Below, one piece after another: positions 52,502 through 64,000 of a DNA stretch of 64,000 nucleotides. The stretch comes from Archangium sp. (GTDB lineage Bacteria; Myxococcota; Myxococcia; Myxococcales; Myxococcaceae), in assembly GCA_030695565.1 (NCBI GenBank), contig JAUYRZ010000131.1, positions 1 to 64,000 on the forward strand, given 5' to 3'. How positions within the stretch are numbered: the first letter of the stretch is position 1; each line of letters starts with the position of its first letter. The notes beneath the pieces were generated by a model. It saw nothing but the letters and a program-made list of their open reading frames with translations, did not search any database and was not told the DNA's origin. A program made the position numbers and the translations under genes.

Positions 52502-52765
52502 ATGACCCGTTCGCTCAGCGTTGCCCAGTTGAAAGCCCACCTCTCCGAGGTTCTGGGAGAGGTGCAGCACACCCGCGCGCAGATCGTGATCGAGAAGCAC
52601 GGCAAGGCCGTCGCCATGCTGGTGCCGGTGGCAGCTGAACGGCCGACGGGATTGCTCGCGTTGGTGGGCGCCTTCGATGACGAGCCCGGCTACGCCCCGG
52701 CGCTCGAGTCCGTGGTGAAGGGTCGGCGCAAGGAAGGCAAACGCAAGGTGCCGAGCCTCAAGTGA
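52502..52765 (+). CDS. Phd/YefM-type antitoxin
   Basis: 87 residues with GGGAGG eight bases upstream. SVAQLKAHLSEVLGEVQHTR and VIEKHGKAVAMLVPV are the Phd/YefM fold, which binds DNA and neutralises the toxin. The C-terminal tail is basic. The stop overlaps the start of the PIN-domain gene (GTGA), the usual toxin-antitoxin layout. Confidence 0.85.
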   Translation: MTRSLSVAQLKAHLSEVLGEVQHTRAQIVIEKHGKAVAMLVPVAAERPTGLLALVGAFDDEPGYAPALESVVKGRRKEGKRKVPSLK

Positions 52766-53166
52766 GATACGTCTTCGACACCGACGTGATCTCGGCCTTG
52801 CTGCGCCGCGACGCGCTGACGAAACTCCATCAGCGGCTCGCGCGGGTGCCGGTTCGCTCGCAGTTCACCACGAGCATCACCCTGGCCGAGCTGAGCTACG
52901 GCGCGCAGAAGGTCGGCAAGCTCGAGCTCTACGAGCGGGTGCGCCGAATTCTGAGCGAGGTCGAGACGCTCTCCTTCGACGTCGCGGCGGCGGAGGTCTA
53001 CGGGCCTTTGCGCGCGCGGCTCGAACGGCGCGGGGCCCGGGTCGACGAGGCCGACCTGCGCATCGCCAGCATCGCGCTGGCGCACGACTGCACCCTGGTC
53101 ACCGGCAAGGTGCGCCACTTCGCCCGGATCGAAGACCTGCGCGTCGAGAACTGGCTGGAGGCCTGA
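52762..53166 (+). CDS. PIN-domain toxin, VapC-type RNase
   Basis: 134 residues from GTG 52762. The PIN acidic residues are in place: FDTDVISALLRR (Asp), SITLAELSYGAQKV (Glu), and VDEADLRIASIALAHDCTLVTG (two Asp). VapC proteins cut RNA, often tRNA, when not bound by antitoxin. Coupled to the Phd-like antitoxin. Confidence 0.85.
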   Translation: MRYVFDTDVISALLRRDALTKLHQRLARVPVRSQFTTSITLAELSYGAQKVGKLELYERVRRILSEVETLSFDVAAAEVYGPLRARLERRGARVDEADLRIASIALAHDCTLVTGKVRHFARIEDLRVENWLEA

Positions 53167-53906: not shown

Positions 53907-54278
53907 TCAGAAGTTGCACCTCGCGAGCGTTCGGTTGTCGATGGTCCACAGGCGATCCGAGAAGCACAGATTGATCGCCTCCAGCACGCAGTCGCGCCCG
54001 AACTCATCGACGATCAGCACGTCCCAGGTGTCACAGGGCACGGTGACGGTGATCTGCTCGTTGGGGAACAACAGGTCGGGGAGCAGGTTCGGCCCCCAAT
54101 CGGGGCTCTGCACCGGCGTCACCCGCAGCTCCGTGAGCACGTACGACGACGCGTTGTCCACGGTCAGGGTGGAGACCGAGCCCCCGCCACCGCCATACCG
54201 GTAGGGATCAGGCCCGCCACACACGCAGCCTGAAACCGCCAGTGCCAGCACACAACTGATCATCCCTGAGGCGCGCAT
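53907..54278 (-). CDS. Small lipoprotein, paralogue of the gene at 54348
   Basis: 123 residues. The signal LALAVSGC ends in a lipobox. The mature domain (SSYVLTELRVTPV, NEQITVTVPCDTWDVLIVDE, GRDCVLEAINLCF, IDNRTLARC) shares a clear residue pattern with the neighbour at 54348-54722, including about six matching Cys. The two are tandem duplicates on the same strand with a 69-base gap. No family recognised; disulphide-stabilised surface domain. Confidence 0.75.
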   Translation of the reverse strand: MRASGMISCVLALAVSGCVCGGPDPYRYGGGGGSVSTLTVDNASSYVLTELRVTPVQSPDWGPNLLPDLLFPNEQITVTVPCDTWDVLIVDEFGRDCVLEAINLCFSDRLWTIDNRTLARCNF

Positions 54279-54347: not shown

Positions 54348-54722
54348 TCAAAAGGCGCAGTACCGCAGCGTGGTGTTGTCGATCACCCACAAGGTGTCTG
54401 CGCGGCAGAGGTCGACGTTGGGCAGCACGCAGTCGCGGTCGTACTCGTCGACGATCAGCACGTCGTAGTCGTTGCAGGCCACCGAGACGGTCAGCTGCTC
54501 GTCGGGGTAGAGGATGTCGCCGCCCAGCAGGTTCGCGCCCCACGTGGAGCTGCTCACGGCGGTCACGCGGATCTCGGTGAGCACGTACGACGAGCCGTTG
54601 TCGATGGTGAGGGTGCCGCTCGGGCTGGGCCCCGGCCCGGGACCCGGCGGAGGCCCCTCCACGTAGAAACAACCCGAGGCGAAGACGGCGAAGAGCGTGG
54701 TGGCCAACACAGGGCTGCGCAT
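54348..54722 (-). CDS. Small lipoprotein, paralogue of the gene at 53907
   Basis: 124 residues from ATG 54722. The signal FAVFASGC is followed by a Gly/Pro-rich linker and a domain (SSYVLTEIRVTAV, DEQLTVSVACNDYDVLIVDEYDRDC, IDNTTLRYC) aligned along its length with the neighbour at 53907. The pattern SYVLTE...RVT...NLL...DVLIVDE...DC is shared. Different linkers suggest an old duplication. Divergent from the LarA-like gene. Confidence 0.75.
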   Translation of the reverse strand: MRSPVLATTLFAVFASGCFYVEGPPPGPGPGPSPSGTLTIDNGSSYVLTEIRVTAVSSSTWGANLLGGDILYPDEQLTVSVACNDYDVLIVDEYDRDCVLPNVDLCRADTLWVIDNTTLRYCAF

Positions 54723-54887: not shown

Positions 54888-56501
54888 ATGCGCCCCCTGA
54901 AGACGCTGAAGAAGCTGTACGACGAAGAGTCCCACATCGTGATCACCGAGAAGGGTTCTCCCCCTCGGGTGATGTTCTACGGCGAGGACTTCTGGGTCGA
55001 AGATCTGCCCGTGGGCACCCGCGTCATTTTCCCGCGCCCGCCGCTGGAGGGCGTGCCCAACGTCAAGGCGGCCATCCGCTACGCCCTCAATCACCCCGAA
55101 GGCATGGACCCGCTCCACGCCCTGCTCAAGCCGGGCATGAAGGTGACCATCGCCGTCGACGACATCTCGTTGCCGCTGCCGCCCATGAAGACGCCCGACG
55201 TGCGTCAGACCGTGTGCGAGATCGTGCTCGAGCTGCTGGCCGACTCCGGCGTCGACGACGTGCACATCATCATCGCCAACGCGCTCCACCGTCGCATGAC
55301 CGACGCCGAGATGAAGCGCATGATGGGCGAGAAGATCTACGACGCCTTCGCGCCCGACCGGTACTACAACCACGACGCCGAAGACCCCGAGGGCATCACC
55401 GAGCTCGAGCGCACGTCTTCGAACGAAGTGGTGGCGATCAACCGCCGCGCCGCCGAGTCGGACCTCGTCATCTACGTGAACATCAACCTGGTGCCGATGG
55501 ACGGCGGCCACAAGTCGGTGGGCACGGGCCTGACCAACTACGAATCACTGCGCGCGCACCACAACCCGCAGACCATTCGTGACTCGCCCTCGTACATGGA
55601 GCCCAAGAAGAGCCAGCTCCACAGCTCGGTCGATCGCATCGGCCGGGTGATCGACAAGACCATCAAGGTCTTCCACATCGAGACCACCATCAACAACCGG
55701 ATGTTCGAAGAGCCGGTGGGCTTCTTGATGAAGAAGGAGGAAGACTTCAGCGAGTTCGACCGGCTCAAGCTCCAGGGCATGAAGTACGCGCTCTCGAAGA
55801 TGCCGCGCCCGATGAAGCGCAAGATGTTCTTCAACATCTACGCGCCGTACGAAGTGACCGGCGTGTTCGCGGGGAGCACCGAGCCGACCCACGAGAAGAC
55901 GCTGGAGATGAGCTGGAAGCAGTACTCCGTGCCGGTGCAGGGCCAGAGCGACATCGTCATCTTCGGCATGCCGTACGTCTCGCCCTACAACGTGAACAGC
56001 ATCTTGAACCCGTTGCTCGTTCAGGTGATGGCGCTGGGCTACCTCTTCAACTTGAACCGCGGTGTGCCGTTGGTGAAGAAGGGCGGGGTCATCATCATCA
56101 CCCACCCCTGCTACGACGAGTTCGACCCCGACCACCACGCGCCCTACATCGAGTTCTTCAATCGATGCCTCACCGAGACGCGTGACGCTCACGTGCTGTC
56201 ACACAAGTACGAGCGCGAGTTCGCGAAGAACCCCAGCTACGTGCACCTGTACCGCAAGGGCAACAGCTACCACGGCGCTCACCCCTTCTACATGTGGTAC
56301 TGGGGCGAGAACGGGCGTCAGCACGTCGGCAAGGTGATCGCCGCGGGCGCCGAGAACAACCACGTACCGGCGATCATGGGCTGGGATCGCGCTGACACCT
56401 TGTCGGAAGCGATCGAAGACGCGCGCGGCTTCATGGGGCGCTCGGCGAGCATCTCGTTCGTGAAGATTCCGCCGATCTTCCAGGTCGACGTTCGGCTGTA
56501 A
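54888..56501 (+). CDS. LarA-like DUF2088 protein
   Basis: 537 residues. The N-terminal domain has the DUF2088/lactate racemase LarA layout: [16 protein letters not shown], then [20 protein letters not shown] and [19 protein letters not shown]. LarA uses a nickel-pincer cofactor to racemise or isomerise alpha-hydroxy acids. Here several His and the GGHKS segment are present, but it is not possible to say by eye whether the cofactor Lys is conserved, and LarB/C/E are not nearby. The C-terminal half (about 260-537) is long and without a recognised family. Confidence 0.65.
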
Positions 56502-57131: not shown

Positions 57132-60100
57132 ATGACGATGTTTTTGCCCCGCGCCTGCCTGGTGCTTTGCCTGTTCATCGTCTCGTGCACGCAAGTCATC
57201 CCTGCTGTGCCGCCGCCCGACGCGCCGCGCATCCTGGGCTTTGCCGCCGGCGCGCGGGTGGTCAACACCAACGAGCCGGTGCGGCTCTCGTTCACCACCG
57301 AAGGCGCGACGCGCGTCTCGCTGGTCGATGACCAGGGCCAGGCCATTCAGCTCGAAGGCAGCGTCGAAGAAGGCGGCACCGAAGTCTCGCCGTCGCGCAC
57401 CACCTTCTACGTGCTGCGCGCTTCGGGGCCCGGCGGCGTGACGAGCGCGTTCCTGCAGATCGCCGTCAACGAGCCGCTGCGTGAAGCGTTTCTCCTCGCG
57501 GTGCCGCCCGAAGTCGAAGCCGGCGAGCCGGTGCAGCTGCTCTGGTCGGCCCCGGGCGCCAGCAGCGTCACGCTCACTGAACGCGGCGGCATGCCGGTGA
57601 CGCTGACGGGCACCTCGGGGCTCGTGCCCATCACCCCGGCCACCTCGACCGGCTACCGGCTCACGGCGCGCGGGGTGACGGGCACGCCGCCCGTCGACGC
57701 GCTGGTCGAGGTGCGCGTCACGCCGGCGATCGGCGCCTTCGACTTCATGGCGGCCAACGGCGTGCGCGTGGGCGAGCCCATCGTCTTCTCCTGGGCCACG
57801 CGCGCAGCCGCGCAGCTCACCCTCTCCGAGCGCACCCTGGGGCAGATCACCGTGGTGACCGACCCGGGGGATCTCGCAGCGGGCACGTTCGACTTCGTGG
57901 TGCCGGCGATGACGCCGTCGGGCCTGGCCATCAGCGACGGGTTCCCGCTTCACTTCACGCTCACCGCGGCCTCGGGCGAAGCGCAGAGCACCCGCGCGGT
58001 TCACACGGCGGTCGGTAATCTCCCCGCCTTCGAGCGGGTCGACGCGCCTGCCGCCGTCAGCGCAGGCCGCTCCTTCATCATCTCGTGGCGCACGCTCAAT
58101 GCGTCGCGCGTCACCTTGATGCAGGCGGGGTTGCCCATCTTCGAGACGCTGCCCAGCGCTCCCGACCGCGCGGTCATCGGCAGCGTCAGCCTGCCTTCGC
58201 CGGCGGCCGATACCGACTACGTGCTCGTCGCCAGCGACGAGCGGGGCCAGACCGCGTCACAGACGATCCGCGTGCGGTTGGTGCAGCCCCCGGTGATCAC
58301 CACCTTCACCGTGCCCGCGACGCTGAGCTCGCCCGGCGGCCAGGTCACCGCGCAGTGGGTGACCACCAACGCTGAGCGCGTGACGCTCAGGCTGGAGAAC
58401 GGCGCCTCGCTCGCGCGGGTCACCGGCCTCTCCCAGGTGCGCATGGGCTCTGCGATGTTCAACCTCGCCTCGACCGCGGCCCTCACGCTCGAAGCGGTGA
58501 ACGCCGCCGGTGACGTGGTGAGCGAGACCCGCACCATCCGGGTCTTCGGAAGCGCCGCCACGGTGAGCCCGCAACCTTCGCTGCGAACCACCACCGGCAC
58601 CGCCACGCTCGATTGGCAGCTGGGCGCGTTGGGCGTCACCGAGACGGTGGGCCTGGCCGTCACCTCGGCTGACGGTGGGGTGCCCGCCGTGAGCGGCTCG
58701 ATGAACTTCATCGATCTCACCGCCTCACTGACCGCCGAGACGCTGCCCTTCGCCGACCCCGGCAACGGCGCTGAGCTGATCCCCCTGGGCACCAGCGGCT
58801 TCAGCTTTCCGCTCGCAGGCCAGCTGCAGCGCCAGCTGTGGGTGTCGGCCAACGGCTTCATCGCCTTCAGCCAGCCCGCGTCACTCTCGCTCAACGCCGA
58901 CCTCGGCCTGAGCAGCAACTCCACCCAGTCGATGCTCGCGCCCTTCTGGGACGACCTGGCGATCCCAGCCACCGGCAAGGTGCTCTACGAGCTGCAGACG
59001 CCCCCCGGCGCCGAACGTTTTCTCGTGGTGCAGTGGGACAAGGTCAAGCTGTCGACCACGAACTCCGAGCTCACCTTCCAGGTGCACCTGTACGAGTCGG
59101 GCCGGGTGACCTTCCTCTACAAGACGCTCACCGGAATGGGCTCGAGCTTCACCGTCGGCGTCAAGGCGACGCACGAGAACCTCCGCCAGCGCTACCAGTT
59201 CAACACCACCGGTGGCCCCATCGCCGCGGATCTCGAGCTCAACTTCTTCACGGGCGGGCCGGCCGACGGCACCCTGCCGGTGACCACTTCGTCGAGCCGG
59301 CGAGTCGCCTTCTTCGGGCGCACGCCCAGCGGGTTGATGCCCGTGAGCGCCGACGTGCGCACCATCGCGGTGGGCGATCTCAAGATCACCGAGGCCATGC
59401 CCTTCCCCGAGGTGTCGGCGGCGTCGTTCGGCCAGTGGGTCGAGCTGCGCAACACCTTGAGCACGCCGGTCGATCTCGACGGCATCCTGCTCGCTTCGGC
59501 TTCGCTCCCTGATGCGGGCACCCTGCTGCCGCCGCGCGTGCTGATGCCCGGAGAGTTCGTGGTGATCGGTCAGTCGACCGACGTCACCCAGACCGGCGGG
59601 GCTCCCGTGCAGGTCGTGATGACCGACGTGCCGCTGGGACCCACCGACAGCGTGAGGCTGCTGGTGCAGGGCACCGCGGTGGCGTCGTTGGCGTGGGATG
59701 GCGGCACGCTGGCCCAGTCGATCTTCGTGCCCGAAGGCCTGCTGGTGGCTGCGGGCAACGTGGTGACCTGCCCGCGTTCACAGAACTTCGGGCCCAACGG
59801 CGCTTTCGGCACGCCCGGCGCGGCCAACGAGTCGTGCGGCTACGTCATCACCAGCATCCCCGGTGGTTTCACCCCCGGGCCGCTGGGCTCGGAGGTCTTC
59901 GGCAGCCTCTCGGGCGACGAGGGCTACGGCAACGGCGTGCTGCCCGCGCCCTTCACCTACTTCGGTACTGCGTACACGGCGTTCAGCCTCTCGAACAACG
60001 GCTTCATCACGTTGGGTGCACCGCTGACGAGCGCCTCGTTGAGCAACGGCACCACGGCCGCCACCACCGCCCCCAACGGGGTCATCGCCCCCTTCTGGGA

Positions 60101-60434
60101 CGACCTGATGCGTGACTCCGGGCGAAACGCGATGTGGCGCCAGGTCGATCGCACCATCATCAGCTACGAAAACTACCGGCCCTTCGGCTCGGCGTACACG
60201 CCCGGCACGTTCCTGAACTTCCAGATTCACCTCATCGACACGGGTGTGATCGAGTTCCACTACGGGACGATCTCCACGACCTCGACCTCCCAGACCGTCA
60301 TCGATCGCATCGCCGGCAACTCGGCCACCGTGTGGATCGAACGGCCCGACGGGGTGCTGGTGGTGCCGCACCGAATCAACCAACTCAATGGCGTGGTGCC
60401 GAACTCCGGCCTTCGCTTCACCCCCGCGCCCTGA
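57132..60434 (+). CDS. Giant modular surface lipoprotein 1 (Ig-like, NIDO-like, LTD-like)
   Basis: 1100 residues from ATG 57132 with AAGGA upstream and a lipobox at LFIVSC. Residues 35-520 hold about six Ig-like repeats of some 80-90 residues (PVRLSFTTEGATRVSLVD, PVQLLWSAPGASSVTLTE, and so on). Around residues 570-710 a nidogen-type block is marked by NGFIAFSQPASLS and MLAPFWDDLAIP and LVVQWDKVKL. A lamin-tail-like region (WVELRNTLSTPVDLDG) lies at 770-800, followed by a second nidogen-like block (NGFITLGAPLT, APFWDDLM) at 950-1090. Probable surface adhesin. It is paralogous to the next two genes. Confidence 0.75.
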   Translation: MTMFLPRACLVLCLFIVSCTQVIPAVPPPDAPRILGFAAGARVVNTNEPVRLSFTTEGATRVSLVDDQGQAIQLEGSVEEGGTEVSPSRTTFYVLRASGPGGVTSAFLQIAVNEPLREAFLLAVPPEVEAGEPVQLLWSAPGASSVTLTERGGMPVTLTGTSGLVPITPATSTGYRLTARGVTGTPPVDALVEVRVTPAIGAFDFMAANGVRVGEPIVFSWATRAAAQLTLSERTLGQITVVTDPGDLAAGTFDFVVPAMTPSGLAISDGFPLHFTLTAASGEAQSTRAVHTAVGNLPAFERVDAPAAVSAGRSFIISWRTLNASRVTLMQAGLPIFETLPSAPDRAVIGSVSLPSPAADTDYVLVASDERGQTASQTIRVRLVQPPVITTFTVPATLSSPGGQVTAQWVTTNAERVTLRLENGASLARVTGLSQVRMGSAMFNLASTAALTLEAVNAAGDVVSETRTIRVFGSAATVSPQPSLRTTTGTATLDWQLGALGVTETVGLAVTSADGGVPAVSGSMNFIDLTASLTAETLPFADPGNGAELIPLGTSGFSFPLAGQLQRQLWVSANGFIAFSQPASLSLNADLGLSSNSTQSMLAPFWDDLAIPATGKVLYELQTPPGAERFLVVQWDKVKLSTTNSELTFQVHLYESGRVTFLYKTLTGMGSSFTVGVKATHENLRQRYQFNTTGGPIAADLELNFFTGGPADGTLPVTTSSSRRVAFFGRTPSGLMPVSADVRTIAVGDLKITEAMPFPEVSAASFGQWVELRNTLSTPVDLDGILLASASLPDAGTLLPPRVLMPGEFVVIGQSTDVTQTGGAPVQVVMTDVPLGPTDSVRLLVQGTAVASLAWDGGTLAQSIFVPEGLLVAAGNVVTCPRSQNFGPNGAFGTPGAANESCGYVITSIPGGFTPGPLGSEVFGSLSGDEGYGNGVLPAPFTYFGTAYTAFSLSNNGFITLGAPLTSASLSNGTTAATTAPNGVIAPFWDDLMRDSGRNAMWRQVDRTIISYENYRPFGSAYTPGTFLNFQIHLIDTGVIEFHYGTISTTSTSQTVIDRIAGNSATVWIERPDGVLVVPHRINQLNGVVPNSGLRFTPAP

Positions 60435-60449
60435 GCCGTGGAGACGCCC

Positions 60450-63400
60450 ATGAAGATCACGACTCTGCTGGCCCGCTTCGCCCTCACCTCCCTGATGGGG
60501 TCACTGCTCCTGGCATGCCCCAAAACGCCTGAGCCCGATCCCCTCGAGCCGATGCCCCGGGTGATCAGCTTCAGGGGCTCGTTGGCCGAGGTGCCCATCG
60601 GAGGCACCCTCACCCTGAGTTGGAGCGTGGAGAACGCCACCGAAGTGCGCATCGAAGAGCTCTCGCTGGGCACGCTCTCGGGCATCGAAGGCGCCGAAGG
60701 CAGCGTGGAGGTCGCGGTGACCACCAACGCGCTCTTCGTCTTGACCGCGCGAAACGCTCGCGGGGCGACTGACTCGGCGGTGGTCTCGGTGCAGGTGCAG
60801 GGCGAACCTTCGGGCCTGCTCTTCGTGAGCTCGGAGACCTCGGTGGAAGCCGACCAGCCGGTGACCCTCGCGTGGTCAGCCCCCGGCGCGAACAACGTGA
60901 CGGTGAACGCGGCCCCGGGTGGGGCGATCGACCTCGCAGGTCAGACGCAGTCGGGCGCGGTGGTGGTGCGGCCCCGCCAGACGACCACGTACACCATCAA
61001 CGCCGGCGGCCGCACGGCGACGGTGGAGGTGCGCGTCACCGGCAGCATCACCCGCTTCACTGCGACGCCCACCGTGGGCACCGCGGGCGGTACGGTGACG
61101 CTGAGCTGGGCGACGGCCAACGTCGATCGGGTGCAGCTGCTCGCGCCGGGCCGGCCTGCATTGGTCGATACCACCGACGCGGCCCGAGTCGCCTCGGGCA
61201 CCTTCGACGACGTGCTCCCCGCGATGATCGACCCGGGCCAGCTCTTCCCCTACGAGCTTCGGGTGACTGCGGGCGCGATCACCCTGACGCGCCAGGTGAC
61301 GGTCACCATCGCCGGCAACCCTTCGATCACCACCTTCGACGCTCCCGTGGCGGCCAAGCGAACACCGGGCAGCACCATCACGCTCGGGTGGCGCACCGTG
61401 GAGACCGACCGCGTCAGCATCTCGGCCAACGGCGTGGTGATCTACCAAAGCCCGGGCCGCGCCATCGCGCTGAGCGGCAGCACCACGCTGCCCGCGCCGC
61501 AGGTCGACACCACCTACGAGCTCACCGCCTCTGATTCACGCGGTGGTTCGGTCACGGCGTCTCGACTGGTCGACAGCCTGGGCACGCCGACGGTCACCCT
61601 GACCGCCACGCCTCAAGCCGTGATGGGCGGAGATCAGATCACCCTGAGCTGGACGGGCCAGGAGATCCGCAACGTGGCCATCAGCAGCTCGACCACGGGG
61701 CTGGTGGTGGTGCGCCAGGGCCCCCTCGATACGGGCACCGCCACGGTGCGCGTGAACGGTGACGCGGTGTTCACCATCACCGCCGACAACAGCCTGGGCG
61801 ACGTGGCCACCTCGACCGCGTCGGTCACCGCGACTTCACCGGTCACCCTGAGCGTGACGCCGTCGGGCGATCTGCGCCTGGGCCAGAACGTGGCCGTCAC
61901 CGCCTCGCGGCCCGGCCCACTGGTCGGGCTTCCCCACCAGACCGTGCAGACCCGGCCCGCGTCGACCGGCTTTCTCGACCTGACCGAGAGCGGCACCCGG
62001 CTGGTCTTCGCCACCACCACCTCGTCGGCCCCCATCAACACGACCTTCCGCACCGTGCTGTTCGGGCGCACCGTGGGCCAGGCGATCCGCGTCTCGCGCC
62101 ACGGCTACCTCGTGTTCGGTGACTACCTCAACGGCTCCAACAGCATCGACGTGGCGCTGCCCACCACCAAGCTCGAGCCGATGGCGGTGGCGCCCTACTG
62201 GGAGTCGCTCACCTTCCAGGACGTGTTCTGGGAAATTCGCGCGGCCGGTGGCACCTCGACGTTGATCGTCCAGTGGAATTGGTCGACGGCCAGCGTGCAG
62301 GCGAAGATCTCCAGCACCGGCGAGATCGAGTTCGAATACGCGCAGCTCCCCACCACGGTGAGCGGCAAGGCCGGGGTGACGGGGCCGACCGTCGCCCAGA
62401 GCATCGCCGCGCCCACGCCCGCAGTGGGCACGGGCTTCACCTTCTTCGGCGCGATGCCCCAGCCCGTGCAGGTGCCCGCCTTTCAGAGCGGCCGGGTCAG
62501 CGCGAGCGTGGAGATCTCTCCGGGCGAAGCGGTGCGCGCTGAAGGCACGCTCACGGCCACCCTGGTCGCTCCCGATGAGCTCGGGTTCACCGAGGTGCTC
62601 TCGCGCTCGGTGCTGCCCAACGGGCAGTGGCTCGAGCTCTCCAGCTGGAGCCCGCGCGCCATCGACCTCACCGGGTGGAGCTTGAGCTTCGCCGATGGGG
62701 GCGTGGCCCCGCTGACCGCCAGCATTCCCGCGCGCGGCACGCTGGTGCTGGGCGCCTCGCTCGACCCCGCACTCAACGACGACGCGGGCGTGCAGGTGGC
62801 CGTGCCGGGGTTCGATCTCTCGGGCGCCACCAGCGTCGCCCTCACGCGCGAAGGCACGCACCAGGCGCTCTCGCTGCTGCAGACCGACGGAGGCCGCCCT
62901 GCGACGGGCACCAGCCTCGTGCTCGACCCCGGGCCGCTGCGCTACCCGACCGGCGTCACGGTGCCACAAGGTGCCCGCACCTGTCTGTCGACCAGCCCCT
63001 ACGGCGTGCAGATGCCGCAGCAGCTCGGCCGGCCGGGCTTCGATCAAGGCTGCGTCTTCCCCTATGCGAAGTCTTCGATCGCCCCGGGCTTCTTCGACAT
63101 CTCGGTGGTGGGCACGGGGCTCTCGTTCGTCGAAGACAACAACGGCCTCGCCTCGCTGAGCCTGACGGCGGCACCCGTGCCCTTCTTCGGCGACGCCCAG
63201 ACCTCGATGGTGGTGAGCATCAACGGGTACCTCTCGTTCGACGAGACCTCCGTGCTGGGCACGCAGCTCTTCACGAGCACGCTGCCCGCGACTGCTGACA
63301 CCAACTCGGTCGTCGCCGTGTTTGCTGACGACCTCCAGCTCAATCGCGTCACCTACCCCGACTCGAACGTCTACCTGAAGCGGGTGGGCCCGGGTGAAGA

Positions 63401-63701
63401 CCCGTTCGCAGCTGCACCGCACTGGATCGTGCAGTGGCACCGCGTCTCGCACTCGACCACCACGGTGGCCTCGCGCGACGACTTGAACTTCCAGGCCAAG
63501 CTCTTCGACGACGGCGTCATCGAGTACCACTTCGCCGAGCTGCGCAGCACCAGCAGCACCCAGTACGGCTCGGGCACGAGCTCGGTCACCTGGTTGGAGG
63601 CGCCTGGCGGCACCTCGGCCCTGGTGATCAACGCCAACTCGACGTCGCCGGGCATCTCACCTCACACCGCCTTCCGCTTCACGCCCCGGGGTTCGCCATG
63701 A
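60450..63701 (+). CDS. Giant modular surface lipoprotein 2, paralogue
   Basis: 1083 residues from ATG 60450 with GGAG seven bases upstream; GTG 60438 is possible. The lipobox is LMGSLLLAC. The order is the same as in the previous gene: several Ig-like repeats (about residues 35-480), a nidogen-like block (HGYLVFGDYLNG...VAPYWESL), a lamin-tail-like segment (WLELSSWSPRAIDLTGW) and a second nidogen-like block (NGYLSFDETSV...VVAVFADDLQL). Its stop overlaps the start of the third gene (ATGA), so the array is probably one transcript. Confidence 0.75.
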   Translation: MKITTLLARFALTSLMGSLLLACPKTPEPDPLEPMPRVISFRGSLAEVPIGGTLTLSWSVENATEVRIEELSLGTLSGIEGAEGSVEVAVTTNALFVLTARNARGATDSAVVSVQVQGEPSGLLFVSSETSVEADQPVTLAWSAPGANNVTVNAAPGGAIDLAGQTQSGAVVVRPRQTTTYTINAGGRTATVEVRVTGSITRFTATPTVGTAGGTVTLSWATANVDRVQLLAPGRPALVDTTDAARVASGTFDDVLPAMIDPGQLFPYELRVTAGAITLTRQVTVTIAGNPSITTFDAPVAAKRTPGSTITLGWRTVETDRVSISANGVVIYQSPGRAIALSGSTTLPAPQVDTTYELTASDSRGGSVTASRLVDSLGTPTVTLTATPQAVMGGDQITLSWTGQEIRNVAISSSTTGLVVVRQGPLDTGTATVRVNGDAVFTITADNSLGDVATSTASVTATSPVTLSVTPSGDLRLGQNVAVTASRPGPLVGLPHQTVQTRPASTGFLDLTESGTRLVFATTTSSAPINTTFRTVLFGRTVGQAIRVSRHGYLVFGDYLNGSNSIDVALPTTKLEPMAVAPYWESLTFQDVFWEIRAAGGTSTLIVQWNWSTASVQAKISSTGEIEFEYAQLPTTVSGKAGVTGPTVAQSIAAPTPAVGTGFTFFGAMPQPVQVPAFQSGRVSASVEISPGEAVRAEGTLTATLVAPDELGFTEVLSRSVLPNGQWLELSSWSPRAIDLTGWSLSFADGGVAPLTASIPARGTLVLGASLDPALNDDAGVQVAVPGFDLSGATSVALTREGTHQALSLLQTDGGRPATGTSLVLDPGPLRYPTGVTVPQGARTCLSTSPYGVQMPQQLGRPGFDQGCVFPYAKSSIAPGFFDISVVGTGLSFVEDNNGLASLSLTAAPVPFFGDAQTSMVVSINGYLSFDETSVLGTQLFTSTLPATADTNSVVAVFADDLQLNRVTYPDSNVYLKRVGPGEDPFAAAPHWIVQWHRVSHSTTTVASRDDLNFQAKLFDDGVIEYHFAELRSTSSTQYGSGTSSVTWLEAPGGTSALVINANSTSPGISPHTAFRFTPRGSP

Positions 63702-64000
63702 TGCGCCTTTCTCAGCTCTCCACGCTCAGCCTGGCAGCGTTGCTCGCCGTGGCCGGGTGCCGTCAGCAGCAGCCGACCACCGTGGTGCCCCCGGCGCCGA
63801 GCATCGAGGTCTTCACCGTCTCGGCCGCGTCACTCGAGGCGCCCGGCCCGGTGACCCTCTCGTGGCAAACCACCAGCGCCACCCGCGTGACGTTGACGCG
63901 CGCAGGCCAGGAGCCGCTCGGAGTGCCCGAAGATCAGCTCAGCGGTTCGCTGGAGGTGCAGGTCGACAGGTCCACCCTCTTCGTGATGGTGGCGCGGGGT
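63698..64000 (+). CDS. Third giant modular lipoprotein, N-terminal part only
   Basis: About 101 residues to the window edge. The lipobox is LLAVAGC, followed by a Pro-rich linker and the start of an Ig-like repeat (EAPGPVTLSWQTTSATRVTL) that matches the previous two proteins. The gene continues beyond the window. Translationally coupled to lipoprotein 2 by ATGA. Confidence 0.8.
   Translation, partial: MMRLSQLSTLSLAALLAVAGCRQQQPTTVVPPAPSIEVFTVSAASLEAPGPVTLSWQTTSATRVTLTRAGQEPLGVPEDQLSGSLEVQVDRSTLFVMVARG

Follow-up and report, generated by a model that had tools for sequence, protein, structure and literature searches.

The window, a stretch of 64,000 nucleotides of Archangium DNA, ends inside a run of long lipoprotein genes. 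The question raised by this locus is whether these genes are part of an open-ended array of related surface proteins or make up a defined system, and what such a system might do for the cell. A first-pass annotation of the window had described a tandem array of at least three giant surface lipoproteins, each with a lipobox, continuing beyond the window, and had considered them a candidate adhesion or surface recognition system that had not been described.

Three lipoprotein genes in an apparent operon

Gene A (57132..60434), the first gene of the triplet, encodes a 1,100-aa lipoprotein with five Ig-like domains, a nidogen-like domain, a lamin tail domain (LTD), and a second nidogen-like domain. 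Gene B (60450..63701; 1,083 aa) has the same architecture and starts 15 bp after A. Gene C starts at 63698, occupies the window to its last position (63698..64000), and ends at contig position C128:66982, giving a protein of 1,094 aa. All three genes are on the plus strand, and their products, each about 1,090 residues long, have a signal peptide and a lipobox. The lipobox cysteine is Cys19 in A (LFIVSC, 57186..57188), Cys23 in B (LLAC, 60516..60518), and Cys21 in C (VAGC, 63758..63760), and the residue at +2 is Thr, Pro, and Arg, respectively. Proteins with a lipobox are lipidated, and those retained in the inner membrane usually have Asp at +2 as the signal. Every array protein whose N terminus was present in our data had a lipobox, and none had Asp at +2. 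The lipobox noted for each protein was found (VSC in A, LAC in B, and AGC in C). The word "giant" overstates the size of proteins of about 110 kDa.

The second and third genes had been reported to overlap, and they share 4 bp: the B stop codon and the C start codon lie within a plus-strand ATGA at 63698..63701, an arrangement that suggests translational coupling. We followed the contig past the window to find the end of the array and any partner genes. The array does run past the window, since C extends to C128:66982, but it ends with C, and a different gene, D, follows 15 bp later. There are exactly three lipoprotein genes, and an open-ended tandem array is ruled out. The intergenic distances (15 bp between A and B, the 4-bp overlap of B and C, and 15 bp between C and D) and the plausible ribosome sites are those of an apparent operon, A-B-C-D.

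Domain architecture and predicted structure

The order of domains in the annotation (Ig-like repeats, a nidogen-like block, a lamin-tail-like segment, and a second nidogen-like block) was borne out by Pfam, by profile comparison, and by an AlphaFold2 model of A. The stalk of A covers residues about 31 to 480 (57222..58571) in the model and in the profile comparison, which also showed that its five Ig repeats are mutually homologous. It is followed by the first nidogen-like domain, NIDO1 (residues about 515 to 725, 58674..59306), located by Pfam and profile comparison; by the LTD assigned by Pfam (residues 746 to 855, 59367..59696); and by the outermost nidogen-like domain, NIDO2 (59844..60431), the counterpart of which in genus g26 is the hypervariable, exchanged head described below. 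The stalk of B lies at approximately 60549..61859, its LTD at 62595..62762, and its outermost nidogen-like domain at approximately 63132..63698. We refer to the NIDO-LTD-NIDO part of A, B, and C as the head; each of the three proteins ends in a strand of NIDO2.

Pfam NIDO (PF06119) matched A with 45.1 bits, above the gathering threshold of 25. B and C did not reach this threshold and are linked by homology; about half of the C-terminal domains gave a weaker NIDO match. Pfam LTD (PF00932; threshold, 34.3) was above threshold in A (38.3 bits) and C (35.5 bits) and below it in B (19.9 bits, a weak match) and in B2, the B protein of a second cassette (30.0 bits). Profile comparison also established homology between the two nidogen-like blocks (hhalign, 99.9%).

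The AlphaFold2 model of A, built with 58 relatives, had a mean pLDDT of 90.4 and showed a five-Ig chain followed by three further beta domains. A structure search with the full model returned only generic Ig chains. The best Foldseek rank was held by GhpA, the Aureispira grappling hook protein (PDB 9flp and 9flx), which is also a bacterial Ig-like chain; this is a generic Ig-chain likeness, with a TM score of about 0.12 to 0.14 and no head similarity shown. NIDO2 alone had no clear solved relative (best Foldseek E value, 0.27; best second-look Z score, 5.0), and these weak structure matches do not establish a new fold. What A has in common with the animal nidogens and other animal NIDO proteins is the Pfam NIDO domain; no other nidogen domain was found, the context is bacterial, and there is no functional link.

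Domain searches in Pfam and NCBIfam returned only generic modules for A to C, with no NCBIfam match, so that no known family with a fully defined role emerged. PADLOC matched none of A to D to any known anti-phage defense system. An ordinary family with a named role is therefore ruled out for A to C. Searches of the literature for adhesins with NIDO or LTD in bacteria found nothing relevant.

Gene D and its MYXO-CTERM tail

Gene D (D1; C128:66998-71069; 1,356 aa) lies outside the window, directly after C and in the same direction as A to C. Its product begins with a long N-terminal region, contains eight TIG stretches, and ends in the tail GCGCSSVDPTILIALGALLLGRRKRS. The MYXO-CTERM model TIGR03382 did not list D1, yet this C terminus has a Cys-containing motif, a transmembrane helix, and an Arg-rich end, the features of a MYXO-CTERM protein, and D2, the D protein of the second cassette, scored 17.3 bits, over the model cutoff of 15.85. 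The tail occurs in D alone and not in A to C, which are N-terminal lipoproteins. MYXO-CTERM proteins are cleaved by myxosortase and reach the cell surface, with type II secretion as the route in the authors' model (PMC11980579). The genome of the window encodes type II secretion system secretins and proteases of the CPBP class, in keeping with this published route.

D adjoins the triplet only in the genus of the window. Outside this genus, D sits elsewhere in the genome (G085, G090, and G091), and the triplet there has no adjoining D. Because other genera have the triplet without an adjoining D, D is not essential to A-B-C, and beyond the genus of the window it is ruled out as an obligatory partner.

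A second cassette and the distribution of the triplet

The genome of the window carries a second cassette, A'-B'-C'-D', at about C56:83993-97959. Positional counterparts in the two cassettes are 51% (A), 46% (B), 53% (C), and 48% (D) identical, compared with about 30 to 35% between different positions (A versus B versus C). Because the genes of the two cassettes match best position by position, the cassette was duplicated as a unit. Redundant copies or a recent amplification are ruled out as the origin of the triplet, the three positions being about 30% identical and deeply split.

We surveyed 145 genomes of the order, with one genome per species, 96 of them in the family. Near-full-length relatives were present in 18 of the 96 family genomes, from eight genera, and full-length relatives were absent from the rest of the order; 5 of the 6 genomes of the window's genus were among the carriers. 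Further paralogues, the lack of which would have spoken against the annotation, were thus found both as a complete second cassette and as relatives in these 18 genomes, several of whose arrays are cut by contig ends; one carrier (G089) has part of one gene only, and another (G093) has two of the three genes. Across the phylum, other genomes have only parts of the architecture. In another family of the order, loci L081 and L082 (G143 and G144) have open frames of 1,800 to 2,700 aa with repeats similar to those of the array proteins, possibly fused or expanded relatives.

In a tree of 59 proteins, all first-position (A) genes formed one branch with a support of 100, and therefore A was distinct before the genera split. 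The second- and third-position genes formed large groups as well; in the genus of the window, the third gene lies closer to the B group. A comes first in order in eight genera, and adjacent array genes often overlap or nearly touch. In G087, contig C169 (L062-L063) has six consecutive lipoprotein genes in the order A B C A B x, which suggests a tandem duplication of the cassette.

Exchange of head domains

We compared the arrays of closely related species to see where the proteins vary. G136 and G134, of genus g26, have a DNA identity of about 95% in the genes flanking the array. The A genes are about 91% identical up to residue ~900, fall to 61 to 74% over NIDO2, and then rise again; the A proteins have an identity of 0.94 over the stalk and 0.54 over NIDO2. 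B dips similarly, and C is lower throughout. In A NIDO2, divergence is raised about tenfold at non-synonymous sites and about twofold at synonymous sites, a pattern that points to import of a diverged allele and not to point mutation alone. dN/dS was below 1 in every segment; in A, for example, it was 0.12 for the stalk and 0.55 for the head.

Across six species, NIDO2 of A falls into two classes, one in G136, G131, and G133 and the other in G132, G134, and G130, and these classes cut across the species tree and the tree of the rest of A. That tree unites G136 and G134 with support values of 100/99, and NIDO2 rejects the pairing (approximately unbiased [AU] test, P = 2.9e-5). A chimera in the metagenome assembly is an unlikely cause of the head divergence, given that identity recovers inside the same gene, both flanks match, and both NIDO2 classes recur in the six genomes.

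A similar result was obtained with the second cassette of the window's genome. As far as residue 400, its B protein shares 74% identity with that of G051; beyond this point, identity is about 47%. The head groups with another array lineage (100/99) and rejects the pairing with G051 that is seen for the stalk (P = 2.7e-4), while the trees for A and C of this cassette keep the G051 grouping with a support of 100. On these trees, the second-cassette B is a mosaic of a conserved stalk and a foreign head. Exchange was also suggested, without reaching significance, for B NIDO2 in g26 (P = 0.14) and for A NIDO2 in g1, the genus of the window (P = 0.054). The clades for the AU tests were picked after the identity tables had been viewed, which makes all of these P values somewhat optimistic. 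Head hypervariability is strongest in g26, and the window's genus has one significant swap, that of B.

A candidate apparatus for surface attachment or recognition

We consider it probable that A-B-C(-D) forms one operon and encodes an apparatus with exchangeable heads for attachment or recognition at the cell surface. The best reading is a fibrillar-adhesin-like three-component system that would be analogous to TraA and unrelated to it. It builds on the established architecture, gene order, cassette duplication, triplet conservation, and head exchange. The annotation's view of the locus as an undescribed candidate fits the architecture, the lipoprotein signals, the MYXO-CTERM partner, the triplets, and the head exchange, with the revision that the unit is a fixed triplet plus D and not a longer array. 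There is a realistic chance that it represents a new recognition system.

In the proposed arrangement, A, B, and C would be outer-membrane lipoproteins, each held by its N-terminal lipid and projecting a five-Ig rod with the nidogen-like/lamin-tail/nidogen-like head at the far end. They are probably exposed on the surface, a lipobox also being compatible with display on the periplasmic side. The three would be distinct, non-redundant components, co-produced in fixed order and possibly joined in one complex; we infer their joint action from conserved gene order only. In the window's genus, D may be a fourth surface partner, a TIG-repeat rod with a MYXO-CTERM tail. The outermost head domain would meet a variable partner, such as another cell or kin, prey, a polysaccharide, or a phage. 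If the head contacts something variable, its alleles would therefore be replaced by recombination while the stalk stays conserved.

Like fibrillar adhesins (PMC8286594 and PMC9210967), A to C are long, putatively surface-displayed proteins with a candidate anchor in the lipobox, a repeated stalk, and a distal head, and their five Ig-like repeats agree with the large length and repeated stalk domains by which such adhesins are recognized. Unlike them, A to C combine an N-terminal lipid anchor with a C-terminal head and occur as three paralogues in a conserved set; neither NIDO nor LTD, the domains of this head, occurs in PMC9210967.

Myxobacteria serve as model organisms for multicellular behavior and group predation in bacteria, and among the polymorphic contact receptors of Myxococcus, TraA has been studied best. 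The triplet with its recombining heads would be a second candidate, unrelated to TraA, for a variable system of surface recognition or attachment in little-known lineages, and its sharp head boundaries are suited to direct head-swap tests. TraA, the Myxococcus receptor for outer-membrane exchange, is conserved except for one domain, which is polymorphic and recombines (PMC3820747). A to C share with it a myxobacterial host and this pattern of a single variable, recombining domain, and D shares its MYXO-CTERM type of tail. However, A to C have no PA14 domain in Pfam and NCBIfam scans and no MYXO-CTERM tail, and they are N-terminal lipoproteins in three paralogues. It is unlikely, in our judgment, that A-B-C(-D) goes as far as a combinatorial counterpart of TraA, that is, a multi-receptor system for self/non-self or partner recognition in which heads are exchanged independently and the combination of alleles sets the recognition type.

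Other explanations account for part of these data. The three proteins could be independent fibrillar adhesins for different ligands that share an operon and form no complex, with head turnover tracking substrates or prey. Each protein has its own anchor, stalk, and head and is thereby complete by itself; identity among the three is only about 30%; and the two genes of G093 and the ABCABx run of G087 show that a strict 1:1:1 stoichiometry is not universal. The first place of A in eight genera, the duplication of the whole unit, and the overlapping or nearly touching neighbors exceed the needs of such adhesins, and we regard this explanation as unlikely. It is distinctly less likely that the proteins are surface decoys, or phage-receptor or predator-escape proteins, whose heads are replaced under attack and whose function is not specific binding. 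Pressure from phages or predators would also produce divergence restricted to the head with allele classes that cross species; it leaves unexplained why three paralogues are conserved in fixed order and why D is a partner. We consider it very improbable that A to C have a structural role in the envelope, at the inner face of the outer membrane, with head divergence a sign of relaxed constraint. A lipobox alone gives no orientation, and dN/dS is below 1 throughout, stalk and head of A alike, but two discrete head classes that conflict with the tree of the rest of A are not expected from relaxed constraint, and the partner D has a surface-sorting tail. With these alternatives weighed, we favor the attachment or recognition apparatus.

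Genomic site of the array

In five other genera (g10, g12, g16, g18, and g26), the triplet adjoins a lipoprotein gene that is conserved and that neighbors aspS wherever this flank could be read, and recJ follows the triplet convergently in g18 and g26 and apparently in g12. The genome of the window has the run of aspS, lipoprotein, beta-barrel, and recJ genes intact and without an array, the last two being separated by about 80 bp. Because the triplet is at recJ elsewhere and this site is empty here, the triplet has moved, or was lost and regained, as a unit. The lipoprotein gene and the beta-barrel gene, a pair that marks the array site in other genera, lie beside aspS at L110:5612-7629 (G000 contig C117) and encode a conserved myxobacterial lipoprotein and a possible outer-membrane beta-barrel. 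This lipoprotein has no Pfam match, and its presence in 101 of the 145 genomes, with or without an array, rules it out as an array partner.

Several neighbors of the array in the window were also identified. Directly upstream of A, 54888-56501 encodes an NPN-dependent hydroxyacid isomerase of the LarAH14/15/16 family (842 bits; cutoff, 740); we saw no link between this gene and the array. On the minus strand, two small tandem paralogous lipoproteins of about 124 aa, at 53907-54278 and about 54348-54720, share the core VLTE(L/I)RVT...DVLIVDE; the first has no Pfam match. Directly after clpS/clpA, 52762-53166 encodes a PIN-domain (VapC-like) protein (50.2 bits).
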